From Persicaria tinctoria (taxonomy: Eukaryota > Streptophyta > Magnoliopsida > Caryophyllales > Polygonaceae), in contig JBANSL010000013.1 in the NCBI GenBank assembly GCA_037127255.1, positions 10,498,688 through 10,562,687 of the forward strand: 64,000 bases of DNA. The letters are read 5' to 3'. Positions 10,739-40,767 of the stretch are shown in pieces. A program made the translations under genes and the position numbers. The notes under the pieces are model-generated. The model did no database searches, was not told the DNA's origin, and was given only the letters and a program-made list of their open reading frames with translations. Positions within the stretch are counted from its first letter, which is position 1. Every line of letters begins with the position of its first letter.

Positions 10739-10839
10739 AATAAAAAAAGGCAGATTTGCAGAAATACCCTACCCAGAAAAAAGGGTTACAAAAGTAGGCC
10801 AAGTTCTACCAAATTGCAAAGGATGCCTATTTAGGCATA

Positions 10840-11480
10840 TTTGTAATAAAAGTATTGTGGGTTTAAGCATTTTTTATATTAAAAAAAATATATATAATTA
10901 GTATTTTCTAAAATAAAAAATTAAGAAATATGATTTTCGGATATAAAAAAAATTATATTTTTTAGGAAAATGGAAAAAAAAACATAAATTCGGATTTTAT
11001 TTCAAAAAACAGAATTTGAGAAAAACAAAAAAGATTTTGAGAAATTGGAAAAAAAAAACCAGATCTTCGGAAATAAAAAAATCCTTTTTTTTTAATTCAT
11101 AACATTTTCTGGAAATGGGAGAAAAACATATTTTCTGGAAATTAAAAAATAAATTCGGAGTTTTTTTTCAAAAAACAGAATTTCGAGAAAGAATTTTTTT
11201 TTTCAAAATTCGAAAAAAACCCAGATTTTTGGGAAAAAAACATAAATTGGGAAATTAAAAAATAATAGGATTTTCTGGAAATTGGAAAAAAAAACAGATT
11301 AATATGATTTTCTGAAAATTGGAAGAAAAAAAAAACAGATTATATGAAAATAAAAAAATAAATTCGGAAAATATAAAATTGGAAAAATAAAGATATGATT
11401 TTCGGAGTTTTTTTTTCAAAAAACACAATTTCGAAAAAGAAAATCTTTTTTTTTCCAAGATTTTCTTTTTCGAAATTCAT
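10840..11480. repeat. A-rich low-complexity tract inside MULE-1
   Basis: About 640 bp of degenerate repeats of the type GGAAATTGGAAAAAAAAAC / TTCTGGAAAT / AAAAACAGAATTTCGAGAAA, strongly purine-rich on the plus strand. Open frames here are low complexity (Phe/Lys runs) and are not credible genes. Confidence 0.7.
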
Positions 11481-12870: not shown

Positions 12871-13176
12871 CATGTCAGTATTTACGTAACATATCGTATA
12901 GCAAGAATGAAAAGGTGTTGTCAATAAAGTGAGAGAACTTGAGACCATATGCTATGGGACAAAGTGGGTGTTGATAGAAGCCACCATAGTGGGTGTTGTC
13001 AACCTAGCTTCATTCCAAAATTCAAACTCCAAAATACTAAACCCACGAATGTTAAGCCTAAGGTTTTCAGCCTAGCATAATATATTACGAGTCGAGTTCC
13101 TAGTAGGATATATACATATATCCGTCAAAAATCATCAACCATTGAACTTTACTACTTCCTAACACACACTATCATA

Positions 13177-14510
13177 TCACATGGGCTTCCATTTGCCATC
13201 CCACACACTTTGCGCGAAAGATTTGCGGTAGCCATCAATATATTTGTCTCCAATTGCCTCCAAGGTAGACCTCTCATTGCTCAAGACTTCAATGTACTTG
13301 AGCGTGTATATCCCGCAATCACCCCTTCCAAATACATACTACACAACGTTATGCATACAAAAAAGGGATATTAACATATATAAGTACTGAAAATTGAATC
13401 TCTTACCCTCGCTTATTAGATTTCAAACCGGGGACGCGAGTCACCCTGAATGGCTCTTCACCCCATTTTCCAACTTGGTTGGTCAATGTCTCAGCACGCT
13501 TCAACACTAGGGGAAGTCCATTTGTTACCGATTCTAACAAGTTCAGTAAAACACTATCTTTGTACAACCCGGGGTCCGAATCATACACATAGAACGACCA
13601 ATCTTTCAAACTGATCTGCAATGCAACCCTTTGTCAAACTTCTATGCAATTCCAAGTAGCCCTTCCTTCCCCATGGATATGCATAAAACCTATCCATATT
13701 TTGCAGAAGCTTCACATGCACAAGATTGACCTTTCTCTTCTTATCACCCCCAAGAAGTATACACTCCACTAGCAATAGCAATGCCAACTTAAATTTGTAG
13801 TTGTTGTCATCCCGCACCGATTTGAACCTCTCCAAAAGAGCTTGCACTTTCATCTTCTCACCACCCAGGTCACCAAAAAACTTCTTCATCGCACCGTCAG
13901 TGCCTTTGATACCGAAATTTGTTTGGAGATCGCAACATAGGCCAGTAACCAAACAGTATTCCTTCATTGAAAATCTTGTTTCACTTCCACCAACATCGAT
14001 CATACCATGTCTCCCACAACTTATTTGTTTGAAGTTGCTTCATCAATACACCATGTATAAGCTGGGATGAGTATGATACCTCTTTCATCATCTTTACGAT
14101 ATTCCCAAACGGTCCATTTATAATTCTTTCCCAATCTCCGGGGGTGAGACGTTCTTCAATATCAGAAACAATTGTCTTTCTTGCATTTAGATTTATTCTT
14201 CCATAAACTGAGTCCCCGGTGTAAAACTTATATTGTATCTGCGAATAAATCAATATTTGCAAGTAATTTAAGATAAAAGATAGACTAATAGCTAATAACT
14301 TCATACAATCCACTCAACCACAACCAAAGACAGAATGACCAAACAATTGCACGTACTTACATCTTTTTTGAAGACTTTCCCCTTGACTTTGTCGTTGGCA
14401 GGTGCTTTCCGCTTCCTCTTCTGTCGTTCTGCTTGATCCCCATCAATGGCTTTAATCTCATTCGATCGACAAGGGGTTAGTACCTCCTTCCCACCTCTTG
14501 TAATGGCCAT
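13177..14510 (-). pseudogene. DUF1985-Ulp1 (C48 peptidase-like) pseudogene of MULE-1
   Basis: Minus-strand exons read as 14510-14361 (MAITRGGKEVLTPCRSNEIK..., Lys/Arg-rich), 14238 to about 13616 (DUF1985: RLTPGDWERIINGPFGNIVK, RFSMKEYCLVTGL, FKLALLLLVECILL, AYPWGRKGY), 13615-13407 (Ulp1 Asp box: DWSFYVYDSDPG) and 13324-13177 (Cys box RGGDCGIYTLKYIE, ending WDGKWKPM-stop). The frame shifts by one near 14000, between LWETW and MIDVGG. The DUF1985 exon runs straight into the 3' remnant of an intron (GCATTGCAG), so the segment with the catalytic His is deleted. The intact relative in MULE-2 has the same domain order. Function as a protease is not expected. Confidence 0.8.
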
Positions 14511-14599
14511 GCCTGCGAACCTTCTATGAACAAAAAATGTGAGTCATAAGGCCTTTCATGATGCTTAGTAAGCAACATATGTTTAGAAAGTAAACAACC

Positions 14600-15895
14600 A
14601 AAGACAAATGGAAATCAAGTAAACAACAAATATTAGCAAATGAAAGATGCCTACAAAATGAAATGGAAATCAAGTAAACAACAAATATTAACAAATGAAA
14701 GATGCCTACGTGATACATAGATAATGGAAAAAATCTTGGATATATTAACTATAGCTCAGGCCACAGATATAATGCAAAAAATCAGTGGCATGCTAAAAAT
14801 TCAAAACAGATGCTCATAAATACTGTAATGCAATTGAATTCAAAACAGTAGAGATAATGCAAAAAATTCAAGCTCAATGTAATGCAAACGACACGTTGCT
14901 ATGATTTTAAATAGTTCAACCATATGATTATGAACAGCTGCTCATCAATGGTGTGAGCAAGAGGACCAGTGCTGAGCTTGAGAAGGGAAACTCGACAGGT
15001 TTCAAGATCATGCTGGCTAAACTCTTTCCTTTGCTTGTGGAAGCTTTCTCTAGCAAAGGAAGCGACTGCAGCCCGTTTACTGAGCTTTGAAAATGAACCC
15101 GAATTCCAAGCACGAATGAAGCAACAATTGACAAATTCACTCAGACATTTTAACAAACACCTTATGTGCAAAAAAATCGTATACACATTGATAATCTAAA
15201 ACTGAGTATTCCAGAGTCCCTTAAATACATGATGGATAAGGGAAGTTTGGATGCATCTAAATGGATAGATTTGGTTTGTTTCGGCAGAAATCGGGCATAA
15301 ACAAGAGAATGGAGGAATCGGTAACATACCTTGCGTTTCTCGAATTCGACGAAAGAGGGCTTTGAGGAACAACACTCGACCTGATGATGACCGATGGCGA
15401 CAATTCCGATCTTCTCACCGGTGTTTTTGCTGGCTTCGGCGGCGGAACGGAGGAGGCTCGTTCAATCGTCGGCGGAGAGAGAACAGGGACCTTAATCCCT
15501 CGTCGTTCAATCGTAGGATTTTTCTGATTTTTTTTTATTTTTTACCTTTTCCCATTTTACAACTTTTTTTTCCTTTTCTTGTTATTTTTTGTTTTTATTT
15601 CTTTTTGTTTTTTGTTTTTTCGTTTTTATTTTATTAAATAGGAAAATCCGGTTTTTTGTTTTTTATTTATTTTACATATTTTTTCTTTTGTTTTTTCTTT
15701 ATTCGTTTTTATTTTATTAAATAGGAAAATCCGGTTTTTTTGTTTTTTATTTATTTTACATATTTTTTCTTTTGGGCACATGTGCAATTTTATTAGGCAT
15801 TTTTGTAAATAAATTAGGCATTTTTGCAATAAAGTAAAGAACAAGGTATATTTGCAACTGTCATAGGAATTTAGGGTATTTTTTGCTATTCTTCC
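14600..15895. other. MULE-1 5'/subterminal region, no gene recognised
   Basis: A 55-bp direct duplication around 14618-14710 (TCAAGTAAACAACAAATATT) lies upstream of the pseudogene start. Short open frames at 14899-15199 on both strands match nothing I recognise. From 15520 the sequence becomes T-rich, with a tandem duplicate containing AAATAGGAAAATCCGGTTTT at about 15635 and 15718, and then the right TIR. Confidence 0.5.
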
Positions 15896-18076: not shown

Positions 18077-21000
18077 TAGTTTGTTTATGTTTTCAAAAAG
18101 TGAAAACATAAATCGGATATCGGATAAGGATTATAATAATTCAGTACACATGAACTAATCTTTCAATGAAAAATGATATTTAAATAGCAATTAGAGTTCT
18201 AAAAAAACACACTGAAACATTTTTAAATACCCATTTATCCAAAGTGTTACTTTTTAAATATCAAATTGACATAAATTTTGGCCCAATTAGCGAAATATAC
18301 ACGTTTTTGTATAATTTGCCAAATTATACAAAACGGCACACGCGCACAAACACACTCCCTCACCCCCACCCCCGATACCACTCAACTGCTCACTCCCTCC
18401 CCTCTCTCTCTCTCGTTTCTCGCTCTCTCCATCGCGGTTTCATCCGAGAAGCTTCGTTTCCCGGCCATTTCGTGCTCGTTCTCGCCTGGTATTGAGAGGT
18501 TATTCAGGATGGCTATCAGCGCAGGTAAGTGATTTGTTGATTTTGGACCGTTTCTGTGTGTTAGGGTTTTGATTATGGTTGATTATGCGTTGGCGAGGTT
18601 TTGCGATGTTGCGATTGGTGTCTTTAGGGTTGTTTGGGATGAAATGTGTGTTGTTCGTTCTGAATCGTACTAGTATGTGCGTTGTTGAGTAGTTACGACC
18701 TCTCTTCTGTAATGCTGACATCGATTTTGGCATCTCATTCCGTTCTTTTTGAATTCATCTCCACCCCTTTGCATGTCTACTATTTGTCGTCTTTGATTTT
18801 TGGCGTGGTATGGGTGTGGTGTGCGTGTTTGTGTTTGGGTTCATATATCTGTGGGGCTGACATCCATTTGTCTCTTTGGTTATCTTGTTTTTGTTATGTT
18901 GACAGGGACCTCAACTGATCTCGATAACTACAAATGCAAATTTGATGTGAGTCTATGAAATTTATGTAGCAGGTGTTGTCATTTTGTTTTCCTTAAATGT
19001 TGACAGGTGTTTTGGTATTGAATATGTATACATTTTTTGCAGAAATTGAAGTATTGCATTCCATACAAAGAACGATTTCATGCCAGATCCAATCTATACT
19101 GCCGGCCTGCAGTTTGTGACATCATTAAAGAAGAGTTGCTGCCCTTATACTACAAGATGTTGAAGGAGAGCTGTCTGGGATGGGTGCTTTCACAGGGCAA
19201 CAATATGATGGTTAACTTTCAGTTAATCCATCAAATGATGTTGCGTCAGGTTAAGACAAAGAAGAAGAAGGAACTATGGTTCAAAGTTGACGGACTGATA
19301 GCTCGTTTTTCTCTTGCTGAGTTCCATGTAATGACTGGTCTTCCATGTGAAGACCGCGTCTGCAAACCTCCGAAAGCAGTGACTTTTTCTGATTTTCTTG
19401 GGATTGATAAATGCTCCCATGATGATTTGATGGATTGTTTCCGACAAATGAAGAAGACGTCGAAAAAGAAGCTATATTTAGCAAGGTTGTTGCTCATCGA
19501 GATGGTTGTGTGTTATAGGCGGATAGAATACATCACTGAGGAAAATCTATCCCTTGCTTGCGATGACGAGACGTTTGGACAATATCCATGGGGCAGACAG
19601 TCCTATGAAGCTCTATTGAAGGCCTTGAAGAAGTCATCTACGATGGATCGCAAGAAAGCTAGGCCTTCGTATGAGTTGTATGGATATTGGATTGCTTTCC
19701 AGGTATTCTGTTTACTTGTGTTGATATATCCTTGCAATCAATTTCTCACTATGTGTCAGCATTGCATGTATTCATTACCTGTGTCAGCATTCATTACTTG
19801 TGTTTTGCATGACCACTTGTTTTGTTTTTACAGGCCTGGATATTGGAAGCTTTTCCGGCGTTGGCTGAAAAGTTTGCCTGTAATTTGAGGATGAATGATA
19901 GAGATCCTCATTCCTTGCACTGGGTTTGCAAGGTTAGGCACAGTTATGATGAAGCTGACGAGCTATTCGATGGCGACTTGGTAAGAGAAATATATCAGTG
20001 CTGACACCAACTCTGTCTTCTTATATACATGTGTTTTCTTATTTATATTTTTTTTGATGTGCATGATAGACACCGCTGTTTCCAAACTACGGAGAGTTTG
20101 CAAGAACCCCAGGCATGGGTTATATCGATGAAGAGGCTGACGATGTTTGTGATGCCATTGGTGAGCCTATGTTTTCGCAACCACCTACTGATATTCTGTA
20201 TGATTGTCGGCATATGCGCAAGTATGCATATGAAAACAAGTTTTTACGTAAAGATGGGTCAGAGATTGAATCATTTATGTCTTTTGAGTATGGTTTTGTT
20301 GGTGGAGAGGAAGAGGAGAGATGTGCTGAGATAGAGAAGCGAACGAACAGGAAACGTGAGGCTGACGAAGGAAATGTTGAGGGCAAATCTGTTGATGTAG
20401 AGAAGGGGAAGAAGAGGAAAAATGCTGACACAGGAAAGCCTTCTAAGAAGAAGCAGAAAGGTACATCCACTGAGACCCAGGGGAAGAGAGTTGCTTTGAG
20501 GAGAGGGCGTTCTAGTGGAACTCCACCAACCAACCCTCAAGATGGGAGGAAGGCTGACATAGAAGTTATAAAATCAATCAGGAGGAAGGCTGGGAGGATT
20601 AGGAAGAAGGCTGTTGCCTTTAACAGTTGTGAGGAATCAAAGAGAGATGTGATTGTTTATGCTGACACAGAGACAACCACACTGGATGCAGACAGGGTAT
20701 CCAAGGAGGGTGGTGCTGACAGGGAGGAGGCTGTTGGATATGCTTGTGATACATCTGATGAGGATAAACCTATTCAGTTTATTTTGAAGAAGAGGAAGAA
20801 AGCTATGGGAAGTACAGGGAAACGTAGAATGTTGTACAAAAGTAGCAGTTCAAACAAGTCTTCCTCTATCCCCCAACCCCCTGTTGATGCGTGTCTATCC
20901 CCCGTTGAAGTTGTGAATGATGCCTGTAGAGCGATTGTACCAGTTGGTGAGGTGCAAAGTGAAGCCCAGGCTGACACAGCAAAGGCTGACCCCAATGATG

Positions 21001-22087
21001 ATCAACCAGATGGCAACCAAGGTGTTGATGCTGACACTGAGAATGCTGACCCCAATGACGGCAGTGAAGGGGTTGATGACACCAATGTTGATGCTATGAT
21101 TGAGAATGCTCTGTTACTTCTGAACAAAGGAATTGATGCTGACACTGAAGATGTTGTGGGTGATGGTCAAGACGGTGACACTATTGGTGATGAAAAGCTG
21201 GAGGTAGGTGCCAACAGAGACACTGGGGGTGATGACAAGGGGGATTGTGGTGGCAACCGGGAGGGAGTGTTTGAGGAGCATTCAAAAGAGCCAGGGTTGG
21301 ATGGTGGTGATAAAGATGAAAATGCAAAAGGGTGTGGTGTTGCTGGTGAGGCTGACGCTAAATTCAACCCAGTTTAGGTACATGATTTAATTAAAAGGAT
21401 TGAAAAACTTGAAGAGCTTCCTACACGCGTAGATGATTTAGTAAGAAGGGTTGAAAAGCTCGAAGAATTGCCTGCACGTCTAAATGAGATGGGGTCTCGT
21501 GTTGATAGGGCGGTTGAACTTGTTGCAATGGTGACAGACCTGATGGAAAAGTACAATTCCCTTGAGAACAGGGTAACACTGCATGAATCTACTGTTGCAA
21601 GGTCACAGTCATCTGTCAACATTGATTAATCAAGTACCAAAGTGGTGAATGCTGACATGAAGATGGGTGTTATCGTTGAGGATGCTATTGCTGAGCAGGA
21701 AGCTGAGTTGGATTCACCCAAAGGTTGTAATCAAATGAAGACATCTTCCTGTGGTGATGAGAGAGATGAAGCCCAAAGAATTACAGGTGATGTGGTGGTT
21801 CCGGAGTCTATCATTCCTGTCACATTTGTTGAAGGACAGAGGACAATAGAGTCAGATTCAGTTCAATATGCTGTTGATCTAGGCCGTGATTCTGATTTGA
21901 TGTCCATGGAGCCAAGAGGTGAAGAGTGTAAGGACGAGAAGGCTGACATTGCAGTAACTCCACCTCCTACCATTGCACCACCAGGGACTATCATCCTCGA
22001 TTCTCCTGAAGGCGATGAAAATGCTGACAAGCTTCCATTGCCTGTAGTGACTGACTGGGTTGCCTTCAGCAAGCACCCTAAAGTAGT

Positions 22088-23584
22088 TGACGGAGGGGAA
22101 ACCTGTCGTTGATTCCGCCAAAGAAACTCAAACCTAAAACTAGTATAGTAATAAGCAAGAGGTCGATCCCACAGGGAAAATTATAAACTCAAGCGTGATT
22201 TCAATGCTGATTAAAGTAGCCAAAGAGGGGGGTTTTTGAGTGTGAAAGATCCGCCTTTTATCAAAGCGGATTAAACAAAGCAAAGTAAAGGAATTGGTTT
22301 TAGACAATTTAGGAGAAGCAATTCCACCTACAATTCTCCACTTTATTGGATTGAAGCGATCACTGTAACTTCTTCTCGTCCTATTATGTTTCCTATGAAT
22401 GCCCTTGTTCCGACCTAATATAGTTACTAGTCCAACCAGTCCTAGCAACCCTTATCAATCGAACAGTCCCTAAAGAAGGATTTAACCCAATTGATAGCTT
22501 TAAGTTCAGAGATTAGCCAAGGTATTTGCAGTCCCTAAAAAAGGATTTAACAACACATTCAACTTCCTACCTATTCAATTAGTTCAACCAGCCCTAAAGG
22601 AATAAGTTTGCCACTTGGGTTAAGGTTCGCAACCAGGAATCTACAAAACCCTAGCGATTGAATTGATCTACCAAGTTGATCAGTCAAGATAGAACAAAAC
22701 AATAAACAATCAAGCACAAAGAAGTTGAAACATTCAATATAGGAAATAAGGAGCGAGAATTAGAAACTCACAATCAATCCAAATAAAGCTTCAAATTGCA
22801 GGCAGAATAGATGAGTTTAGTTCCTCATGGAAGTCATAGCTCTCAATCTCTAAAAAGTCTCAGTGTTGAATGAATAGAATGAATGGTATGAATGCTAAAG
22901 AAAAATAACATAAAAAGCCTAAAACAAATATCCAAAGTCGGCCTCCAAAGATAGAAACTGAAACTAGGGTTTTTGGGTAACAAAACGGCGCGCGGCAAAA
23001 GGTGCGTACGTGCGGCGGGCGCAGCGGCGGGCGCAGCGGCGGGCGCGGCAACTCATGCGGCGGGCGCAGCTGGAATCAGCTCTCTGGCGGCGGGCACCGC
23101 AGGTGACAGCGGCGGGCGCGGCAACCCATGCGGCGGGCGCAGCTTTGGTCTTTCACGGAAATTGTGTCTTGAATCAGCTCTCGACGTCAACATGAAAGTT
23201 GTAGCCCTCTGAAAGAGCTTTCCAACGCATGGTCATAATAGTCGATCGGACAACCGAGGCCTCCAGAAAGTGCAAAACAAGTTCAGCATGTCTGGCGACA
23301 ACTTCTGCAGACTTGTTCTTCGTTTATGTTCGCTTCTTCTTCTCAGGACCTCTTGAGATCTTCATGTAAGCTTCTTCGATCAACTAGACATTCTCATCCA
23401 ATGCGTTATCAACCCATTTATCCTTCTCGGATCCACAGTTACCTGAATTAATCAATAAAAGCATGTAGATTCCGACTCCAACCACACAGAGAACAAATAT
23501 GCAAATTAAACTTAACCCATGCACGATATGCATCTTAACTAAGCTAAATGTAACCTATTATGCCTACCTAAATGCGTGCTATCA
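22088..23584 (-). repeat. 3' LTR (left copy, 1497 bp)
   Basis: It begins TGACGGAGGGGAAACC on the plus strand and ends GTGCTATCA. It includes a GC-rich block (22985-23145) of CGGCGGGCGC-type repeats with one more 12-bp unit than the right LTR. Confidence 0.95.
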
Positions 23585-23600
23585 AACTCCCCCACACTTA
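23585..23600 (-). other. Polypurine tract
   Basis: On the minus strand the sequence reads AGTGTGGGGGAGTT directly upstream of the 3' LTR start TGATAGCACG. This is the expected plus-strand DNA primer of a gypsy-type element. Confidence 0.85.
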
Positions 23601-24985
23601 ACCTTTGCTTGTCCTCAAGCAATGATAGAATGAACATGAATCAATGTATCCCACAGGAAATCCCTTCAAGTTTCAATATTACCGAAAAGCAACATCATAG
23701 CAGGTGAAAACATAAACCAAGCAAACAAATGTCATAGCATGTATTCCAGTGATCAAAGCTTAGAAGTAGACATCATCCAACCTCACCAGAATTATGTGTT
23801 TCACTCATGTGTTTAGGCTTTTAGGTACATCTCTCAACTCAAACCAATAATGCACTAAGCCCATAGACATTGACCACCATATCACCAATTCTATACCAAA
23901 ATGTCATTACTTGCGGGGCAACATAAAGAAAATAAAATGCAACACTTTACATATTTTTTTTCTTTTTTCTTGGTTTTCTTTTCTCTTTTTTTTTTTCTTG
24001 TCTTGGTGCTTTCCTTACGCGAAGCGCAAACATGGGTGTCATGAATGGCCCCGGTCTATCAACACCTCAACTATTAATATGAAGTCCACTTGAACATCTT
24101 TTGACGCAAGTTGCAAACATGGGTGTCATGAATGAACCTGGTTACTCAATGATCAAGCTTTCTTTCCTAGTGGATAGTTTTCAACACCTTTTTGCGCGAA
24201 TCATACCCATGGGTGTCATGCATAGATCCGGTTACTAAGTGCATCAACCATTGCCACCTTATTCACTAAATATGCATAAAATGAAGTAAAAAGACTCAAA
24301 ATATAAACATAAACTCCGCAAGCAACAAACATGTGCATTGGTCTTCAAAAATAGATACTGCAGTCAATGCCAAGAGGTAGCAACACTAGGCGAGTAAATC
24401 ACACAATTAAGCAAAAGAATTCAAAATAAGGCCAAACATCCTCACAGGGTCATGTTTTTAGGACTTCTATCACACTTTAGCTCAATCATACATGCTCAAT
24501 TATACTTGCTAGCTCATGCTCCACAAAAATCATTTAGCAATAATAATCAAAACATCCAAAACTCCATGGAATTTTTATGATTCATGCTTGAAATTTAAAA
24601 ATAGAGGACAACTAAGCAAGATGGGTATTTGAATAACACATATATATGCAATGCATGCTCTATTTTAATATTTTCGATTTTTTTTTTTTTTTTTAATTCC
24701 GAAAATTAAATTAAATAAAAGCTAAACAATAACTTAATTAAACTTAAACATGGTGTAGAAAATGAAATATGCTCTAACTCTATGCACTATGTAAATAAAA
24801 CTCCTCTCCCCCACACTTGAAGTTTTCATTGCCCTCAATGAAACATTAAAGACAACAAAAGTGAACTCATATACTCAGGTTGAAGGAAAAGAAAAAAGAA
24901 AATAAATCCGAAAAATGTACCTCGGGTTGCCTCCCGAGAAGCGCCTTTGTTTCAAGTCGTTGGCTCGACGTGATGGCCCTTGATC
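23601..24985. other. Non-coding 3' interior of the LTR retrotransposon
   Basis: About 1.4 kb lies between gag-protease and the PPT where pol would be expected; no RT or integrase motif was found. Three imperfect repeats carry AACATGGGTGTCATGAATG-like cores, at about 24018, 24100 and 24195. T-rich runs occur at 23949-23998 and 24675-24695. Confidence 0.7.
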
Positions 24986-24988
24986 GGC

Positions 24989-27577
24989 CTATGTTCCTCC
25001 ACCAGGGTCACCAACACCGGCCATTTCATTGACAAATGCGGGCACCCTTGAAAGGTGTAGCTTCCTGTTCCAGCATTCAGCCATTTCTCTTAGCTTCTCT
25101 CCATGGGCTATGCCTGGGGGTTGTCCTGAAATCACATAAGATTGCAATTTGTTAGGAGGTTCAAATTTCCATAAACTATGTTCCTTAGGTGTCTCTAACA
25201 AATCACGAAAATTATTGTTATGATCAGTATTATCAGCAATATGCATATCTAAAGAAGTTTCAGGAGAGAGCTTAGCGTGATTAAAGAGAGAGAATTCTAT
25301 CTTTCTTCCATCAAACTCCATAGTCAATAGGCCCTCACAACAATCAATTTTCATCTTTGCAGTTTTCAGGAATGGCCTTCCCAGTATAATGGGTGTTTCA
25401 GGGGTTCCCTGCTCCATATCTAAAACAAATAAATCAACAGGGAAAAACAAATCATCCACCATAACCAAAACATCTTCAACAACGCCTCTTGGCCTGATTT
25501 GTGATCGATCAGCGAGCTGCACTGTAATCCCTGTCTCAGTCAGAGGACCCAAACCCAAAGATAAGTACATGTTATAAGAAATAACATTGATTGAGGCTCC
25601 TAGATCTAACATGGCTTGTTTGAATCTAGTATTCCCAATCGCACATGGAATCGTAAACATACCTGGATCTCCGCATTTTTCAGGCAATTTCCTTTGCAAC
25701 ATAGCAGAAACATTTTCATTCAAGCTCACCTTTTCCTTCTTTTTTAGTCTCTGCTTCCTCTTAATGGTGCACAATTCCTTCAAAAATTTAGCATATCTAG
25801 GAATGCTCTTAATTAGGCTAAGTAAAGGAATGTTTACCGCACACTTGCCGAATGTCTCGAAGATCTCCTTGTCATTCTCATATATTCGTGTGTCTCTCAA
25901 GGCTTCCGGAAAAGGCGGAATGGGTTTTGGAATCTCCATAGGTGAGGGAGAAGAAGGAGTAGAAGAAGACGAAAGAGACGGAGGAGAAACGAAAAGAGGA
26001 GGGGAAGAAACCGTACCAGGCAAAGACTCGGCGACAACAGGTGGCGCGGGCACGCTGCAGGGGGCGCGGCCGCGCTGGGTTTCTGTTGCGGCGGGCGCCG
26101 CAGTAGGAGCGGCGGGCGCCGCAGCTTGAGCAGCGGCGGGTGCCGCTGGAATCGCCTCACTGGCGGCGGGCACCGCAGAGGCTAGCGGCGGGCGCCGCAG
26201 CTGGAGCGGCGGGCGCCGCAGCTGGAGCGGCGGGCGCCGCACCTCTGTTACGCCGTTTTCACCTTCATTTATCTCTATTTCTTCGTCCATCATCTCCTCA
26301 TCGTCTTTTTGAGTTGTGGCAATCAGTTCCTTGCCACTCCTAAGCATTATTGCACTGACATTCTCCTTAGGATTCTCAACCGTCTGTGATGGAAGCTTAC
26401 TTGCATCGTTTGCCATCTTCGCGCTTAAGACCTGAATGAGCTGACTCATTTGATTCTCAAGATTTGTCATCCGATCGGATTGCTGTTTCTCTAGATTCGC
26501 CATCCGCTCTGTCAGTTTCTGCAACGGACCCTCATTATCCCTATTGGATTGCTGCTGACCTCCCTGTCGAGGTTCATATTGTTGTTGAGGCCTTTCCTGT
26601 TGCCCCCCTTGCTGATTGAAAGAGGCTTGATAGTTCCCATAGCCTTGCTGATAGCCCCTATTGTAATTGTTGTTGTTGAAATACCCAGGATTCCCATAAT
26701 TGCCTTGCATAGGCCTTTGTTGACCGAAATTCCCAATGGCATTCAATTCAACATTTGGATCTTGCACGGTTGAGTACATATCCATATGGTAGGATGGATC
26801 AGTGTAGGACTCACATGCTTTCAATTGCTGAGGTGCTCTGTCATCCACCAGCTTCTTAAGCATCTGTTTCACCTCTGCCATATCGGTCTGTAATGCAGCC
26901 ACTGGGGGATCAATAGCAAGTACACCTCTAGCCCGAGTGCTCTTGTTGAACTGCCTAGAGCCCTCAGAGAGCTCCTTGAACACTTCCCAAGCTGCTGCAG
27001 GCGTCTTATTCAGCATGTTTCCCCCACAGCAAGAATTCACTGTTTTGCGCTCTCCATCGGTAAGCCCGTTGAACAAGAAAAGAACAAGATCCTTTTGGGC
27101 ATACCCATGGCATGGGCAGCTGGCGCAGAGTTTCTTGAAGCGTTCGAAGTACTCGTGGATAGACTCTGTCGCGTACTGCTCAATGCTGCTTATAGACCTT
27201 TTCAAAGCATTCAGCTTTGTTGCAGGGAAGTACATTTCCAGGAAAACTCTTTTCATCTCGGCCCAAGTGGCGATAGAGTCAGGTGGTAGATAGAAAAACC
27301 ATTCACTTGCATCATCCTTCAAAGTGAAGGGGAAGGCTCTTAGCTTGATTTGCTCTTCAGTTACATCCGCTGGTTTCATCCCAACCACCACCCTATGGAA
27401 TTCAGAAAGATGCTTGTGGGGGTCCTCCCCACTCAGCCCATGGAATTTTGGTAGAAGATGAACTACCCCAGACTTAAGCTCAAATTTAACCCCTTCTGCT
27501 AGCGCAGGAAATTGGATTGCCAGTGGTTGCTGTGCCAGATCAGGAGCAGAAAGCTCCTTAAGAGTGCGGTTCGCCAT
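24989..27577 (-). CDS. Retrotransposon gag-protease polyprotein
   Basis: A single 862-aa frame. Residues about 20-190 match Retrotrans_gag (FHGLSGEDPHKHLSEFHRVV, LRAFPFTLKDDASEWFFYLP, FKKLCASCPCHGYAQKDLVL). A Gln/Asn-rich region follows at about 280-350 (QQGGQQERPQQQYEPRQGG). A Pro/Ala-rich repeat follows at about 455-510 (RRPPLQLRRPPLQLRRPPLA), encoded by CGGCGGGCGC-type DNA shared with the LTR. A retropepsin domain sits at about 650-790, with active site MLDLGASINVI and flap-side ILGRPFLKTAKMKIDC. No CCHC zinc knuckle and no RT, RNase H or integrase are present. The protein would package element RNA but needs a helper for replication. The frame is intact, consistent with youth. Confidence 0.92.
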   Translation of the reverse strand: MANRTLKELSAPDLAQQPLAIQFPALAEGVKFELKSGVVHLLPKFHGLSGEDPHKHLSEFHRVVVGMKPADVTEEQIKLRAFPFTLKDDASEWFFYLPPDSIATWAEMKRVFLEMYFPATKLNALKRSISSIEQYATESIHEYFERFKKLCASCPCHGYAQKDLVLFLFNGLTDGERKTVNSCCGGNMLNKTPAAAWEVFKELSEGSRQFNKSTRARGVLAIDPPVAALQTDMAEVKQMLKKLVDDRAPQQLKACESYTDPSYHMDMYSTVQDPNVELNAIGNFGQQRPMQGNYGNPGYFNNNNYNRGYQQGYGNYQASFNQQGGQQERPQQQYEPRQGGQQQSNRDNEGPLQKLTERMANLEKQQSDRMTNLENQMSQLIQVLSAKMANDASKLPSQTVENPKENVSAIMLRSGKELIATTQKDDEEMMDEEIEINEGENGVTEVRRPPLQLRRPPLQLRRPPLASAVPAASEAIPAAPAAAQAAAPAAPTAAPAATETQRGRAPCSVPAPPVVAESLPGTVSSPPLFVSPPSLSSSSTPSSPSPMEIPKPIPPFPEALRDTRIYENDKEIFETFGKCAVNIPLLSLIKSIPRYAKFLKELCTIKRKQRLKKKEKVSLNENVSAMLQRKLPEKCGDPGMFTIPCAIGNTRFKQAMLDLGASINVISYNMYLSLGLGPLTETGITVQLADRSQIRPRGVVEDVLVMVDDLFFPVDLFVLDMEQGTPETPIILGRPFLKTAKMKIDCCEGLLTMEFDGRKIEFSLFNHAKLSPETSLDMHIADNTDHNNNFRDLLETPKEHSLWKFEPPNKLQSYVISGQPPGIAHGEKLREMAECWNRKLHLSRVPAFVNEMAGVGDPGGGT

Positions 27578-27686
27578 CTCTGCAATGGTTTCTACAGAGA
27601 AGAATTAGTAGCAAAAGGTATGGACCAAGTAAGACGGTCCACACCAAGATCAACACTAAAAACACACAAGAATTTAATAAAAAAAA

Positions 27687-27704
27687 TCCCCGGCAACGGC
27701 GCCA
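27687..27704 (-). other. Primer binding site
   Basis: On the minus strand TGGCGCCGTTGCCGGGGA lies four bases inside the 5' LTR. This is the primer-site sequence typical of plant Athila/Tat-like gypsy elements. I could not check the matching tRNA. Confidence 0.85.
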
Positions 27705-27708
27705 AATT

Positions 27709-29193
27709 TGACGGAGGGGAAACCTGTCGTTGATTCCGCCAAAGAAACTCAAACCTAAAACTAGTATAGTAATAAGCAAGAGGTCGATCCCACAGGGAAA
27801 ATTATAAACTCAAGCGTGATTTCAATGCTGATTAAAGTAGCCAAAGAGGGGGGTTTTTGAGTGTGAAAGATCCGCCTTTTATCAAAGCGGATTAAACAAA
27901 GCAAAGTAAAGGAATTGGTTTTAGACAATTTAGGAGAAGCAATTCCACCTACAATTCTCCACTTTATTGGATTGAAGCGATCACTGTAACTTCTTCTCGT
28001 CCTATTATGTTTCCTATGAATGCCCTTGTCCCGACCTAATATAGTTACTAGTCCAACCAGTCCTAGCAACCCTTATCAATCGAACAGTCCCTAAAGAAGG
28101 ATTTAACCCAATTGATAGCTTTAAGTTCAGAGATTAGCCAAGGTATTTGCAGTCCCTAAAAAAGGATTTAACAACACATTCAACTTCCTACCTATTCAAT
28201 TAGTTCAACCAGCCCTAAAGGAATAAGTTTGCCACTTGGGTTAAGGTTCGCAACCAGGAATCTACAAAACCCTAGCGATTGAATTGATCTACCAAGTTGA
28301 TCAGTCAAGATAGAACAAAACAATAAACAATCAAGCACAAAGAAGTTGAAACATTCAATATAGGAAATAAGGAGCGAGAATTAGAAACTCACAATCAATC
28401 CAAATAAAGCTTCAAATTGCAGGCAGAATAGATGAGTTTAGTTCCTCATGGAAGCCATAGCTCTCAATCTCTAAAAAGTCTCAGTGTTGAATGAATAGAA
28501 TGAATGGTATGAATGCTAAAGAAAAATAACATAAAAAGCCTAAAACAAATATCCAAAGTCGGCCTCCAAAGATAGAAACTGAAACTAGGGTTTTTGGGTA
28601 ACAAAACGGCGCGCGGCAAAAGGTGCGTACGTGCGGCGGGCGCAGCGGCGGGCGCGGCAACTCATGCGGCGGGCGCAGCTGGAATCAGCTCTCTGGCGGC
28701 GGGCACCGCAGGTGACAGCGGCGGGCGCGGCAACCCATGCGGCGGGCGCAGCTTTGGTCTTTCACGGAAATTTTGTCTTGAATCAGCTCTCGACGTCAAC
28801 ATGAAAGTTGTAGCCCTCTGAAAGAGCTTTCCAACGCATGGTCATAATAGTCGATCGGACAACCGAGGCCTCCAGAAAGTGCAAAACAAGTTCAGCATGT
28901 CTGGCGACAACTTCTGCAGACTTGTTCTTCGTTTATGTTCGCTTCTTCTTCTCAGGACCTCTTGAGATCTTCATGTAAGCTTCTTCGATCAACTAGACAT
29001 TCTCATCCAATGCGTTATCAACCCATTTATCCTTCTCGGATCCACAGTTACCTGAATTAATCAATAAAAGCATGTAGATTCCGACTCCAACCACACAGAG
29101 AACAAATATGCAAATTAAACTTAACCCATGCACGATATGCATCTTAACTAAGCTAAATGTAACCTATTATGCCTACCTAAATGCGTGCTATCA
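27709..29193 (-). repeat. 5' LTR (right copy, 1485 bp)
   Basis: Near-identical to the left LTR. Differences seen by eye: GTCCCGACC against GTTCCGACC (about 28030), GAAGCCATAG against GAAGTCATAG (about 28454), AAATTTTGTC against AAATTGTGTC (about 28770), and one 12-bp GC-rich unit missing. Confidence 0.95.
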
Positions 29194-30918
29194 GTAGTCG
29201 AAGAGATTGAAGAACTCAGGCGATCCAAGCGTATCCCAAAAGCGAGTACTTTTCTGACGAGTCCATTTGAGCAGCAAGAAAAGAAAGGAAGGTGGCCCAA
29301 GCACAATGCGAAGAAGTCGTTTTTAAGTGAAGACGATCATGAGTTCTTGTACAAAACTATGAAGAGTAATCGGTATTTTTTTTTATCTTTTTACTCGTTA
29401 TATAATCATTAACTGTCTTGTGCTGACACCTCTACCTCTTATGACTCTGTGCTTAATTCATAACTGTTGCTTGTTTTCAGGGATTTTTCTGTCGTTGTTG
29501 CTTCCGGAAGAGTTGATAAATCCTTTTTTAAACCAATTCTTAACAAGGACATGTGGCTGGAGTGTTCGGTAAACGATATGGCAGCAATTATATTTCATAT
29601 TGTTTGTCTTTTGGTTTTTGTTTATTGATATTTGTCGTTGTATACCTAGCGCTGACAGTAGCTTGTTACTGTGTGTTGTAGCATATTGAAGTAGGGTTGT
29701 ATTATTTGAGGAAGAGGATCCATGAGGAAGCCGATAAGTATGCAGAGTTCATTGTCCTTGATTGGCTTTTCTATCAGAACTACCTGCCAGCTTGTGCTAA
29801 AGCGTACAAAGCAGATTCGCCTGTGACAGACATGATTGGGAGCTATTTCCTGGGTCTTTTCCCTGACCAGTATGGCAAACCATGGGCGTCTGCAAACAGG
29901 ATTTACACACCCTTTAACGTCATCAACAAACACTGGGTTGCCTTAGAGATCATAATTGATCAGAAGGTGATCAACGTATATGACTGCAATGTCTATGGTG
30001 TCGGCAAGGGTGTAGTAGATGCAGAACTGCAACCTATTGCTCACTGGCTTCCTGTACACTTGGATAAGTGCGGAATATATGAAAAATTTAGCACCACACC
30101 ATTTGAGATAAGGAAGGTCCCTGACATGGTGCATGACAAATCTGGGTTTGTACTCTTACCTAACTTTTATATTAATTGTTGACATACATTTACTTTCTGT
30201 TTATCTGTTGTTGACACACCCCTATTTGTCTGCGTTTGTGAGTGTGTGCAGAAGTGCTTGCGGGGTGTTTACAGTGAAAGCAATCGAGGCTGTTGTATTT
30301 GGCGGAGATGTCACCACAATCACATATGAGAAGCTATCCCGCTACTACAGAGAGCTTATTTGCTCAGACTTGATCAAGGAGTCTTGGAGCTTCATAATTT
30401 GAGCAATGCTGACACTATCATTCTGAGTTCTTAGTTTAAGTGACATTGTAGTTTGGATATGAAGGTGGATATTAACTGTATGTATTTTGTTGACATCATT
30501 ATTCTGGGTTTGGATATTAACTACTTCCACACGAACATCGTTCGCGTATATATGAAATGTATGTATTTTGTTGTGTTTAATGTACTTATTCGGAACTAAG
30601 CATCTGGTTTTTTACATTAGATCGAATTTGATATAGTCTCCAATCACATACAATGTAAAAAATCCAATATGACATACAGCAATGCTGGAAAGAAAGTGCA
30701 TTGAATCTTCTTGAAAACATATGGGAATGTATCAGTGTCAGCATTGCCCATAATGTTGACATGGGGTTATGTAAACTATGAAAAAAGTAATATCCAAAAC
30801 AGAATCAGGTTTATGATATGCAATATATATAACTGGGAGGGGGGGCGTTTCTAAGTGATTGTATCCTAGAAGTTTATGATATAATTAAGCGAGCCGGTCT
30901 CAAGCAATGCTGACACCA

Positions 30919-33346
30919 TCATTTTTTGGAGTACTTCAGTCTTCTCTTTAGCTCACACTTAGGCAACAGTCTATTGGAGGGAGGTCTTCCTGGTCCCCTC
31001 TTAACAACAGGAGGGTAACACTTTATGGATCTTATTGCTTCAGGGACGCCTGATTCATCCTCTGTCAGCACTGGGTATATTGTTTCAGCATAAGCTAATT
31101 TCCAAGCATCAGTTGTGTAAAATCTGGCAACAAAGTCTGATACATTCGCCTTAACCTTCATGATGGCTGAAAGAGCATGAACACATGGGATCTTCTCTAT
31201 ATCGAAAAACTTGCAAGTGCATGTTTTTGCTGACAGGTCCACTATTGCATGAGACCCTTGCCCTTTTACTTCAAATTTATATTCATCCAGCCTCTGAACT
31301 TTGTATTCTCTAGCTTGATCTTGCAGGTTCCTAATCAAATCAAGTACTGCTGGTGTCAGCGTGTCCTCATGTTTGGATGCCTTTTCTCTACGCTCTTGGA
31401 ACCATTCCCCGAGTTTCTCTCTAGCAAAATTCAACAGTGCAACAATAGGGTAATTTTTCTTCCCCTTGAAAATGGAATTTAAGCTCTCTGCATTATTAGA
31501 TGTCATCATGTTGTATCTGGTGATTGGTGAATGTGCTCTAGCCCACCTATGCACTCCTGCTGACACTAAATAGGTCGCCATCTTCGGGCAGCTTTCCCTT
31601 ATGCGGTTAAAATATTTGTCGAACTCCCCAGTACTATAACTATCCGCTGCTTTCTTGAACCAATTTCCCAAGTATCTTTTCTTAAATGTGCTTCTAATGT
31701 TTTGTTCCATGTGCCATCTACAAAGGCAGTGATGTGCACTGGGGTAAACCAAGCCAATTGCTCTTGCAATGCTGACATGTCTATCGGACACAAACACCAG
31801 ATCATTTGATGGAGGAACAACCCTCATCAGCTGGCGAAGAAACCACTCCCAAGAGCTGTTGTTTTCTGTGTCAGCAATGGCAAATGCAAGGGGGAAAATA
31901 TTTCTGTTTGCATCTTGCGCTACTGCCCCAAGCAAAGTCCCTTTGTATTTCCCAGTTAAAAATGTTCCATCAATAACAACAACCTGTAAAATAATGATCA
32001 TAAGTTGTGCGATGACAAAGGAATATTCAAAAGTGATCTGTGCTGACACTGATAAGTTTATACCTTTTTCAATGCAGGGAAGGCCCGAATGCACTGCCCA
32101 AATGATAAAAATAAGTATTTAAACCTGCCATCATCATCTGTTGACATCAATGCAACAGTTCCATCATTCTTCTCCATAATCATGTGACAAAATAATGGCA
32201 AGTCAGCAAAATTTGACTCCGGTGTCCCTCTGTCCCTTTCTTGTGCAATTCTTCTTGACTTCCATGCTGTCCAATAACTAATGGGAATTCTTTTTTTCAG
32301 TCCTCATTTTATCCATTATCTGCTTTGGATTGTAGCCGCTGCTGACACTGTAATAATGCATACATTAGAATGAATGATGTGATACCCGAACTGAGTGTTA
32401 CTTTGATGATAAAATATAGACACTTACACTGGCTGGATTATGCTTGCTACCACTGAGGAAGGTGCTTGCCTGCAATTGCTTGTCCTCACATCCCATGTGC
32501 ATGTGTGCAAACCATTGTACGCTGACACCTCGTAGCAATTATGAGAAACAGTATTTACGTGTAACTTCCATCTGCAGCTAGTATCCACGCAATGCGCCCT
32601 AAAATACTTGGGTTCAGATCTCGTTACTCGGTACCCAAATATTTCTGTCACCGATAAAATACGTAAAGCATCCTTCATTTCCTTCTTTGATTCAAAGGTT
32701 CTCCCAATGTACATTGTGCTGGATGAGGTATTGTTGAAACTACTCATGCTAGAGCTGTCATCCTTGCAATCTTCAATTGTTTTATCTCTACTGCGCATGG
32801 AAGAGTACAGTCTCCTCCAGGTGTCAGCATCACAATCAATGTCATTATCATCCTCCATATCATCATCCATATCATCATCCATATCATCATTCATGTCATC
32901 TGACCCCACCGTCTGCATTTGAGGGTCGGCAATCATATGATTTTGCTCCCTGTCATACTCAATCAATCCAACTGATTTCACACTCTCCCTGTCAGTTGTG
33001 TCAACAATTGCAAGTGGTTGTGCCTGTATGCTGACAGTCTGACACACAACTCAACAGCATAGTCTACACCATCTAGTGCTGATATATCGAGGAATTCTTT
33101 CAAATCAGTGTCACAATCAACTATAAGTGGGGCTTTGAGCTTTTTGCATGGGTGCAAATGACTAAATTGCAATTCAAGAACACTGTCTACATTGAATCTA
33201 GTGCACACCTTTCTCTTCAAGTCTTGTAGTGTTGTTGAATCATACAGCAAAAACACCTTTGATGTTGTATTTCCAACAAATTCCAGGCCTGTGTCAGCAA
33301 ACACCCATGATCCACCAAATACTACTGTAATCACATGAGGTTCCAT
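30919..33346 (-). pseudogene. MURA-type MULE transposase (MULE-2), frameshifted
   Basis: Exons on the minus strand are about 33346-32428, 32347-32064 and 31983-30919. The N-terminus (MEPHVITVVFGGSWVFADTG, FNVDSVLELQFSHL) resembles the PB1-like lead of plant MULE transposases and is followed by an Asp-rich stretch and a MuDR domain (FESKKEMKDALRILSV, CRWKLHV). The last exon holds the DDE core: VVVIDGTFLTGKYKG, VFVSDRHVSIARAI, AHHCLCRWHMEQN. A SWIM zinc finger follows (CTCKFFDIEKIPCVHALSAI), then an AT-hook-like KRGPGRPPSN. Frame changes are needed near 33040 and near 32290 (the latter by an A7 run), so the reading frame is broken unless these are sequence errors. Catalytic residues are all present. 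Confidence 0.87.
32855..32905. repeat. Trinucleotide-like repeat coding for poly-Asp
   Basis: Four CATATCATCATC-type units in the transposase exon encode a run of MDDD/DDDM on the minus strand. It is an in-frame acidic expansion. Confidence 0.75.
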
Positions 33347-33414
33347 TTATGATTGACCTATCAATTAAATAGAGACAATATGCAAACAATCAGTGTCACA
33401 ATGAGTTTACTCTG

Positions 33415-33535
33415 ATTCCATGTCAGCATGATAGATATAAGTTAGATACAGGCAATATATATACAAGTACAATGAATTGCATTTGATTCCGTGTCAGCAT
33501 GATAGAAATAAGTTAGATACATGGCATTTATTTAC
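33415..33535. repeat. Two ~71-bp tandem units with TGTCAGCA
   Basis: GTCAGCATGATAGATATAAG at 33422 and GTCAGCATGATAGAAATAAG at 33493 start two tandem copies in the transposase 5' region. Each carries one motif copy. Confidence 0.8.
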
Positions 33536-34152
33536 GAAATCTCAGACAGTGTCAGCATTATACAACGAGGCTAGAAATCAAAACAGATCTATGTAGAACA
33601 ATTCAAACAATTAATTTCTTTCAATTCATTCAAGTACAACATTTCGAATTGATCCAACAGAGATATTTTAAGGATCGTGATGTTGACAGATCTAGCAGAT
33701 CGATGAAGAACCTGAAACTCTATATATTGTTGACGACTTACTGTGATTTGTATCGAAACAGTAACAACTGAAGTCGAAATTACAAGATCTACACTATACG
33801 AGTTCATCTATTGGATATAAAACGAAATCTACAAACGAAATTTACAGATCTATGAACGACAGATCTACCAATTATACGAATGCTGACATCAAAACCACAA
33901 TTCAGTAATGCTATGATATTAGATAGATGTAGTGATAGATGTAGTACCGGAAATTGGCGTTGATCGGCGTTGATCAATACATACAGGCTACCGCGATCGA
34001 AAATCGGAGGGAGTTCTATCTCGTGTCAGCGTCGGAGAGATCGGGGGAGGGTGCACGTGTCCCGTGTATATTTTGGCAAAATTCCCAAAATTGTGTATAT
34101 TAGGCTAATATGGCCTCTATATATGTATATTTCGCAAATCCCCCTAAATTTT

Positions 34153-34845
34153 AACCGATTAATGCCTTATTTTTCCTATCAATGGTAACTATTGAGGTTA
34201 CTACAAATATTAGCAATTTAATACATGCGTAATTTGGAGGATATAGTCAATTGAAAATAAAAAGAAAAGGATAATTAGGTAAGACTAAACACGGGGCAGT
34301 TAGGTGATAAATCGTGGTCCTCACCTCACCACACACCACTTCGCAATCTATGGGATTAGTTGGACTGATTGGGATCACCTACGTTCTATCAATTTTCAAT
34401 ACTATATATATTAAATTAATCTTAAATTGATTTCACTAGGTATTCTTATTCCTATTATTATTATTAAAAACCCCGTAAAGGAGGAAATGTCATTTTCTTT
34501 ATAAAAAAAATGGCAATTAGACAATGTATGTACTTAGAGATTGGGTGTCTCTGTCAATTTTTAAAAATTAAAAAATAATGATAGATTGTAAATCTCATAC
34601 ATAATGTAAGTGAATCTGCGAAAATGACTCCCAATCTAATTTAGCTTTAATTGACACAAATAACTTTTTTTTTTTGTCAAATCCCGAGCACATCATGTGC
34701 ACCCAAGTCGAGCACACAAGTCCAACGGGGTTCAATTCTAAAACCAATTAACACTAGGAAGAGTGACCCACTGACTTATATACAAGACTCGGATTCTCGT
34801 ATTTTTCGATGTGGGACGAAGGTTTCAAGACATCACAACAAAAAC
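34153..34845. other. AT-rich spacer
   Basis: Nothing recognisable beyond short A/T runs between MULE-2 and the 98-bp SINE. Confidence 0.4.
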
Positions 34846-38903: not shown

Positions 38904-40767
38904 TGATAGAGCAAAAGTAATTCCGTATGATGTCTAGGGGCATAATCGTCTTTTATCAGGTACATTAATTAAAACCCTAATTCCTATTATATATAAAGGA
39001 TGATATAGCTAGGGTTCAGGGGGGCTCTCGATCAGTGAACACAATCCTGACTTGAGCGTCGGAGGCTTCCCACGGGGAAGCAGCCCCGCCTCTTCCTTTC
39101 CTCCTTCTATGCAGGTGATCGATCGAGGTCGAGGAGGAAGAAGGTGCAGATTTGTGCACTCACATTTGGCGCCGTCTGTGGGAATCGGTCAAAAAGTCAT
39201 GTGATCGGATCTCCCAAATCTGATCCTTTTACGCTGATGCTGGTCAACCTCGCCGGGAGAGTGGGGAGAGCGGACGAATCGCTCCTTATCGTCGGGTGCT
39301 GGTGATGGTGGGACGATGAGGCGGTGGAGGTTCAGCCTTGGCCCAAAGACCCTACGAGCGCCGCCAGGCATCGGACCACAAGACAAGGGTGCCACGGTTC
39401 ACCGGACCGAGGAGACTCACCCCCTCTCGTCTTCACCCGCTCTGTCGCCCCCCTACGTTGCCCATCGCAAGTCCGACACCGCCAACTCTCGATGGCCACC
39501 GCCATCACCAATTCTTCGTCAGCACCCCTCAAGAGAGCCGTGGAACCAGCAGCGGGCTAGCCCGCGTCTAAGCCTCGCCCTCCATCGCCACCACAGTCGC
39601 CGATTCCGACCTCCACTGTCTCTCTTTGTGCGACTCCGATTGGACCGGCTTAGCGTTGCGCCGTAGCCGCCGCCACCAAGCACCCCTTTCGATCACCGAA
39701 CCACGAGAGCACGCCGGTGTCGATGGGTAGGCCGGGGGCACCCCAATCCAGATCCTTCACCGCCGTCGAAGTCGAGGCCAAAGGCAGGACAATCGACGAG
39801 GACGCCCCTTTGAGTCCATCGCCGCGGCTCCTCTGTACAAACCCGGAGAGGAAGACGTTACTTAGTTGGGATTAATTATTTTGTAATTAATTCAAGGACG
39901 TTACATTGCAAGTTTTGGCAAATTACAAGACCAGCCCAAGGTTCTTGGAAATCGCAGTTCAGCCCGCACATTTAAGCTATTTGTGGAAAAAAGACCAACT
40001 TAGCCGCTCAAGGCCAACTTAGCCGCTCAAGGCCAACTTAGCCGATCAAGGCCACATTAGCCGCTCAAGGCCACATTAGCCGATCAAGGCCAACTTAGCC
40101 GATCAAGGCCACATTAGCCGCTCAAGGCCAACTTAGCCGATCAAGGCCAACTTAGCCGTTCAAGGCCAATTTAGCCGCTCAAGGCCACATTAGCCGCTCA
40201 AGGCCAATTTAGCCGCTAAAGGCCACATTAGCCGATCAAGGCCAGCTTAGCCGCTCAAGGCCAATTTAGCCGCTAAAGGCCACATTAGCCGATCAAGGCC
40301 AGCTTAGCCGCTCAAGGCCACATTAGCCGCTCAAGGCCATATTAGCCAATTATGGCCACAATAGCCAATTACGGCCACAGTAGCCAACTACGAATCAAAC
40401 GACTAACGTTTACGGCAAAATCATCGTTCAATCGATAAACTTCGCCATTTACTTTTTTTCGGCTTCCTTCATCATCGAGACATGAAGAAGAAACCCGAGG
40501 GGCAATTGATAGAGCAAAAGTAATTCCGTATGATGTCTAGGGGCATAATCGTCTTTTATCAGGTACATTAATTAAAACCCTAATTCCTATTATATATAAA
40601 GGATGATATAGCTAGGGTTCAGGGGGGCTCTCGATCAGTGAACACAATCCTGACTTGAGCGTCGGAGGCTTCCCACGGGGAAGCAGCCCCGCCTCTTCCT
40701 TTCCTCCTTCTATGCAGGTGATCGATCGAGGTCGAGGAGGAAGAAGGTGCAGATTTGTGCACTCACA
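38904..40767 (+). mobile_element. TRIM/LARD-like non-autonomous LTR retrotransposon (1864 bp)
   Basis: Two 261-bp LTRs, 38904-39164 and 40507-40767, start TGATAGAGC and end CACTCACA and look identical by eye. The 5-bp TSD CTCAG is perfect (38899-38903 and 40768-40772). The PBS TGGCGCCGTCTGTGGGAA follows the left LTR at 39166, and the PPT-like CCCGAGGGGCAAT precedes the right LTR. The interior is 1.34 kb with no gag or pol: a GC-rich stretch with short overlapping frames and a 19-bp minisatellite. It inserted into the copia RNase H coding sequence. A TATATATAA box sits in the LTR (about 38990). Recent insertion is likely. Confidence 0.93.
40000..40395. repeat. 19-bp minisatellite in the TRIM-like element
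   Basis: About 21 units of TTAGCCGCTCAAGGCCAAC, with variants GATC, GTTC and CTAA in the middle and AAC or ACA at the join. The last three units have decayed (TAGCCAATTATGGCC). Variants alternate in a higher-order pattern, implying multi-unit duplications. Confidence 0.95.

Follow-up and report, generated by a model that had tools for sequence, protein, structure and literature searches.

Why should a single octamer recur along the whole length of a transposable element, in coding and non-coding DNA alike, and what would read it? The question is raised by MULE-2, a Mutator-like element (MULE) at positions 18281-34144 of a 64,000-nucleotide stretch of the Persicaria tinctoria genome (assembly GCA_037127255.1, contig JBANSL010000013.1, positions 10,498,688 to 10,562,687), which is called the window here. 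Comparison of sequences points to a VANDAL-like Mutator element whose VANC-type protein most likely binds TG(C/T)TGACA along its own DNA, which would counteract host methylation.

The octamer in MULE-2 and its copies

Examination of the window revealed 30 exact copies of the octamer (TGCTGACA/TGTCAGCA), 29 of them at 18713-33888 and one at 58436. An earlier note on this DNA had counted 29 copies in about 8750 bp and held this to be far above chance, and the excess was borne out: in the 8.78 kb of MULE-2's own sequence, 0.66 copies are expected under an order-2 Markov background and 29 are observed, 19 on the plus and 10 on the minus strand. They start at 18713, 19754, 19782, 19999, 20423, 20660, 20714, 21029, 21137, 21650, 22022, 29421, 30407, 30736, 30908, 31063, 31228, 31558, 31770, 31869, 32041, 32340, 32822, 33029, 33292, 33421, 33492, 33550 and 33881. 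The word stayed exceptional when all 8-mers were ranked against Markov and shuffled backgrounds, as the note had proposed; it came top under order 2 and joint first under order 3, and 200 dinucleotide shuffles of MULE-2 produced at most 3 copies of it and at most 8 of any 8-mer with more than two letters. Under order 5, a model that already holds most of the word, it fell outside the top rows. The window outside MULE-2 has one copy in 48118 bp. A long terminal repeat (LTR) retrotransposon nested in the element (22088-29193, minus strand) has none in 7106 bp and forms a motif-free internal negative control; it carries a gag open reading frame (ORF), its LTRs are 99% identical over 1498 bp, and it is accompanied by a 5-bp duplication, GTAGT.

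Subterminal clustering of the sites is ruled out by their even spread, with no departure from uniformity (Kolmogorov-Smirnov, KS, p 0.39). Flank comparison over 406 site pairs gave three above the 99.75% quantile of the null, of which only 33421/33492 exceeded the null maximum; since so few pairs show excess flank similarity, the sites did not arise by copying of a single longer repeat, and their unrelated flanks rule out tandem duplication as their origin. The variant TGTTGACA is also enriched, with 10 sites observed (18897, 18998, 21614, 30177, 30209, 30488, 30754, 32139, 32999 and 33681) and 1.04 expected. Among one-base changes of the word, this C-to-T variant occurs 10 times and its mirror, the G-to-A variant, not at all, which disfavours symmetric deamination at CHG (H being A, C or T). 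As majority sites of TGTTGACA are also 0.84-1.0 intact across copies of MULE-2, CHG deamination is an unlikely source of the variant.

According to exon models built in this analysis, the element carries a VANC-like gene and a transposase gene, and both are broken in the window copy. The VANC-like gene (plus strand) comprises a DUF1985-domain exon at 19043-19702 (PF09331, 4.2e-25) and further modelled exons at 18509-18524, 18906-18946, 19834-19980 and 20070-22088, the last being a linker exon with two in-frame stops. Its Ulp1 (Peptidase_C48) part, in two exons within 29683-30400 (PF02902, 3.9e-10 and 4.1e-10), lies downstream of DUF1985 on the same strand, beyond the nested insert, and is predicted to belong to the same gene. 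The transposase gene, at 30922-33346 on the minus strand, has three exons (33346-32430, 32343-32064 and 31983-30922), matches to PF10551, PF04434, PF00872 and PF03108, with SWIM and DBD_Tnp_Mut among its domains, and two frame breaks. No relatives of this transposase were found in viral_contigs.

Measured against these models, wholly exonic sites number 15 and non-coding ones 13, the remaining site crossing a splice acceptor; their density is nonetheless greater in non-coding DNA (14 in 2733 bp) than in exons (15 in 6025 bp). The claim that the word spreads over exons of both genes and both strands holds for these 15 of the 29 sites and for the strands; it fails for the DUF1985 and Ulp1 domain exons, which have no exact copy of TGCTGACA, all exonic sites of the VANC-like gene being in its variable linker. 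On the same models, overlap with splice acceptors is seen at 32340 (exact copy; ACAG before the junction, TGTCAGCA after it) and at 18897 (variant TGTTGACA; TGTTGACAG before the junction, G after it).

Protein sequence can be excluded as the cause of the exonic sites, because none of 5000 synonymous shuffles reached the observed counts, either in the 5' part of the VANC-like gene (mean 0.88, observed 7) or in four transposase pieces (mean 0.43, observed 7; a fifth piece, with one further site, was left out). The seven exonic sites of the VANC-like gene share one frame and encode Ala-Asp, and those of the transposase fall in several frames and on both strands. Conserved transposase coding DNA, marked by tblastn over 2189 bp, contains 8 of the 29 sites, unphased and on both strands. 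At one transposase site the codon is for Ala, in place of the Val found in 31 of 34 aligned relatives; despite this striking change, an overall protein cost at motif residues is marginal only, the deviation over the five motif sites of the last transposase exon giving P 0.058 and 0.071. All five motif peptides are kept in a 96%-identical protein fragment (P0038), one of the three covered is kept in P0040 and P0041 (about 70% identical), and none is kept in full in P0039 (51%).

A search of the genome (1.68 Gb, 221 contigs) with a 1.3-kb MULE-2 probe gave at least 40 matches among those scored of 593 candidates, 39 of them outside the window at 94-98% identity. Twenty places were fetched and 19 aligned, L014, which is partial and overlaps L015, being dropped. 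Eighteen aligned copies are near-complete and L011 is truncated; the near-complete ones span about 9 kb and therefore lack the nested insert. The same octamer, which the earlier note had proposed to seek in related MULEs, is present throughout, with 25-31 sites in element coordinates in the 18 near-complete copies, 16 in L011 and 29 in the window copy. At sites defined by the majority of copies, the octamer is intact in 0.952 of cases against 0.897 for composition-matched octamers (P 0.003) and 0.902 for all octamers (P 0.015), P values which, like all those on conservation given here, are optimistic because the copies share ancestry. The non-coding sites stand out whether defined by majority (0.956 against 0.868, P 0.005) or by the window copy (0.957 against 0.836, P 0.003).

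Target duplications of 9 bp, with 8-9 bases matching, flank 10 of the 11 copies with both ends in view, and the ends are inverted only in part (degenerate terminal inverted repeats). The left-most terminal bases of the other copies are absent from the window copy and L011. The window copy, with weak inverted ends, was initially taken to end in an intact pair of inverted repeats and target duplications, a view revised because other copies extend further at the left end: the probable right duplication TAAATTTTA (34145-34153) matches at 8 of 9 bases a probable left remnant, TAAATTTT(A) (18272-18280), joined to the shortened left end. On contig C5 (511398-525768), L015 and the partial L014 are oppositely oriented MULE-2 copies that lie tail to tail.

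Related elements and their private words

The DUF1985 domain of MULE-2 is by sequence a homologue of VANC21 of Arabidopsis: the single exon matched PDB entry 9LNJ (chain 9lnj_A, identical in sequence to 9lnk) at E 2.6e-7, and a longer spliced query at E 7.1e-9. A crystal structure of VANC21 is mentioned in the available text of a meeting report (PMC8756742). A DUF1985 protein search gave no match at E 0.001, the DUF1985 of MULE-1, described below, gave no VANC21 match in the PDB search, and a single-sequence structure model was poor (predicted local distance difference test, pLDDT, 37). The VANC precedent invoked in the earlier note is upheld at this level, both by the VANC21 match and by other DUF1985 elements with octamers of their own.

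Ten further loci were collected, L029-L032 via the distant transposase P0039 and L033-L038 hand-picked from the 150 that were scored of 4775 DUF1985 candidates. The top word is TGGTGACA in L029-L032, CCGTGTCA in L033 and L034, CATGTCAC in L035 and ACATGACA in L036; in L037, CCGTGTCA is practically level with CGTGTCAC. TGTCA/TGACA lies inside the top word of every locus from L029 to L037, the exception being L038, with CGAGATCG and a DUF1985 96% identical to that of L037. Together with MULE-1, this makes five other families with private octamers (TCCTGTCA, TGGTGACA, CCGTGTCA, CATGTCAC and ACATGACA), and the MULE-2 word occurs 0-1 times in each of L029-L038. Same-strand neighbours 20-24 bp apart are present in L029 and L031-L037, and none were found in L030, L038, MULE-2 or ten MULE-2 copies. 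Helical phasing is said to be a VANC feature in Sasaki et al. 2022 (EMBO J). Families of this kind look greatly expanded in the genome, with 4775 first-look candidates for DUF1985, of which 150 were scored, and 8107 for transposase P0039, of which 110 were scored. In L034 and at about 3314-7803 of L038, TCGAGATCGA repeats, often in inverted pairs about 21 bp apart, adjoin a DUF1985 gene near-identical to that of L037; these could represent either a second word or some other repeat.

Placement in coding DNA differs between these families and MULE-2. Tblastn-marked coding DNA of the ten loci, about 19.4 kb, holds none of their 138 sites, and ten of the 20 fetched MULE-2 copies have 7-8 sites each in conserved coding DNA. 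With one locus per family, the comparison is 8 of 29 sites for MULE-2 against 0 of 80 for the five other families (L038 is left out of the 80 and included in the 138).

The closest comparison is provided by L039, a sister element that is L031 retrieved at greater length, with a DUF1985 42% identical to that of MULE-2 and the same order of DUF1985, Ulp1 and transposase. With Y for C or T and R for A or G, MULE-2 has 39 TGYTGACA (TGCTGACA 29, TGTTGACA 10) and 5 TGRTGACA (TGATGACA 3, TGGTGACA 2), and L039 has 43 TGRTGACA (19 TGG, 24 TGA) and 4 TGYTGACA (4 TGC, 0 TGT), the four including all its copies of the MULE-2 word. This contrast gives a Fisher P of about 1e-15, in which sites within one element are not independent. 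All 43 TGR sites of L039 share one orientation. Its long variable linker ORF has eight sites, and its conserved coding DNA has 0 of 19 TGGTGACA and 2 of 24 TGATGACA, a minor variant; exonic sites are therefore not wholly special to MULE-2, and the earlier description of coding-exon spread as unusual stands against the five families and is softened by L039. Taken per base, MULE-2 and L039 differ at P 0.02.

MULE-1, the neighbouring element at 10749-15895, has weak inverted ends and 9-bp flanks (ATAAAAAAA), both read from the window copy alone. It contains a DUF1985 ORF (13581-14039, minus strand; PF09331, 3.9e-21), 29% identical to the MULE-2 domain over the aligned part, and an array of 16 exact TCCTGTCA copies at 11494-12877, all on the plus strand, with many 21-24 bp steps when one mismatch is allowed. 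No transposase ORF is in the ORF list of that stretch (ORFs of at least 110 aa), and MULE-1 may be a non-autonomous element that carries a VANC-like gene. Elsewhere in the window, a 19-bp minisatellite of about 19 copies (39991-40392) lies near Copia-like gag-pol fragments, and 59387-60078 has stretches rich in CCCGTCCCG, repeated and palindromic.

Candidate readers of the octamer

In the mechanism that we favour, MULE-2 would encode a VANC-type protein with DUF1985 and Ulp1 parts, the DUF1985 protein would bind TG(C/T)TGACA dispersed over the element, and binding would remove host DNA methylation from it. That this protein most likely reads TGYTGACA is suggested by the VANC21 homology and by the logic of private words. 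The earlier note's view of the word as a self-recognition tag for an element-encoded DNA-binding protein is supported. The exonic sites may bring the protein directly to gene bodies, instead of by spreading from non-coding arrays. This last step is attractive because, in the available text of PMC10398659, the VANC effect in coding regions is termed enigmatic and repression of VANB21 and VANC21 is attributed to body methylation at CH (C followed by A, C or T). A fuller proposal is tentative, and we give it somewhat less than an even chance: anti-silencing sites may have moved into MULE-2 exons by point changes, conserved transposase exons included, drawing the protein directly onto gene bodies, where it would remove CH methylation, and sister specificity may be a one-base purine/pyrimidine switch (TGRTGACA against TGYTGACA) on a TGTCA core common to nearly all families examined.

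Several observations weigh against this interpretation. Exonic sites taken alone are conserved only marginally better than background: when defined by majority they are intact at 0.949 against 0.904 for matched octamers (P 0.06; P 0.17 against all octamers), and when defined by the window copy there is no difference (0.883 against 0.882, P 0.53), a loss due to site 33029, which the window copy has and 0 of 18 other copies share; to this is added the optimism of the P values. The VANC sites described in print are for the most part non-coding and in tandem, and those of VANC21 one-way, as far as the available accounts go; MULE-2 sites are neither in tandem nor one-way. A mainly non-coding word and tandem arrays, both described for VANDAL21 and VANDAL6, and the single orientation described for VANDAL21, are the VANDAL traits that MULE-2 lacks. 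The DUF1985 and other parts of the MULE-2 protein are, moreover, not the sole candidate binders.

One such candidate is the transposase of MULE-2, for which the octamer would be a dispersed form of the sites bound by the Ac/Ds or Spm transposases. It has a predicted DNA-binding domain (PF03108), and L029-L032, found via the transposase, have a word of their own; yet the Ac/Ds and Spm sites are subterminal and those of MULE-2 evenly spread, and MULE-1 pairs its private array with a DUF1985 ORF and has no listed transposase ORF, so that we consider this unlikely. A host factor exploited for transcription is quite improbable. TGACA is the core of TALE homeodomain sites and a plausible plant factor core, and TGTCA is common to several families, but exons as well as intergenic DNA carry the MULE-2 sites, on either strand, and family-specific flanks together with the sister one-base switch better fit co-evolving element proteins than a single host factor.

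That the word has no function and simply results from repeat expansion, mutation or protein sequence is very improbable. Such an origin would suit the seven Ala-Asp sites in one frame of the VANC-like gene and the pair 33421/33492, a clear local duplication. It is opposed by the synonymous shuffles, by the several frames and both strands of the transposase sites and by the unrelated flanks, as well as by the conservation of non-coding sites above background and the one-sided C-to-T changes.

Gene-body recruitment is directly testable in one genome, as MULE-2 with exonic sites occurs beside related elements mostly without them. The sister pair, one motif base apart, and the solved VANC21 chain offer a clean route to the motif-reading residues. 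If a DNA tag has indeed influenced which codons a mobile element uses, this would be a case of DNA-level selection within exons.

MULE-2 among known VANDAL systems

A literature search, with Sasaki et al. 2022 outside its range, found no plant paper on TGCTGACA; its single hit was a paper on mouse prostate. MULE-2 shares with VANDAL elements a Mutator transposase, a VANC-related DUF1985, degenerate terminal inverted repeats with a short target duplication, and a family-enriched word. New relative to VANDAL/VANC are the word itself, the TGTCA core in most families examined, the one-base switch between sisters and the sites in conserved coding DNA. The elements of the same genome, MULE-1 and L029-L039, resemble MULE-2 in having DUF1985, Ulp1 and/or a MULE transposase and a private octamer, with the TGTCA core except in L038; they differ in that their sites are almost all outside conserved coding DNA and in many cases follow 20-24 bp same-strand steps.

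Of the Arabidopsis proteins, VANC21 binds YAGTATTAY and VANC6 works through AGTTGTCC/AGTTGTAC, each lowering methylation in its own element set, and according to the available text the words are mainly non-coding and tandem, that of VANDAL21 in a single orientation (PMC5735166). VANDAL21 (Hiun) with VANC21 is, like MULE-2, a Mutator element that has a homologous DUF1985 protein and is itself rich in one short word, and it differs in the word and its arrangement, MULE-2 having 15 of its 29 sites in exons, sites on both strands and no tandem array; the Ulp1 domain of MULE-2 is a further difference. The private words of VANDAL6/VANC6 share TGTC with the words of this genome and differ in their flanking letters. 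Ulp1-bearing VANCs, found in KIU-type VANDALs, are described in like terms in the available part of a review, as recognising their own motifs in non-coding regions (PMC13317346); these elements resemble MULE-2, on its predicted gene structure, in joining a DUF1985-type gene with Ulp1, and in having a motif of their own, and MULE-2 departs from them in carrying its motif into exons as well.

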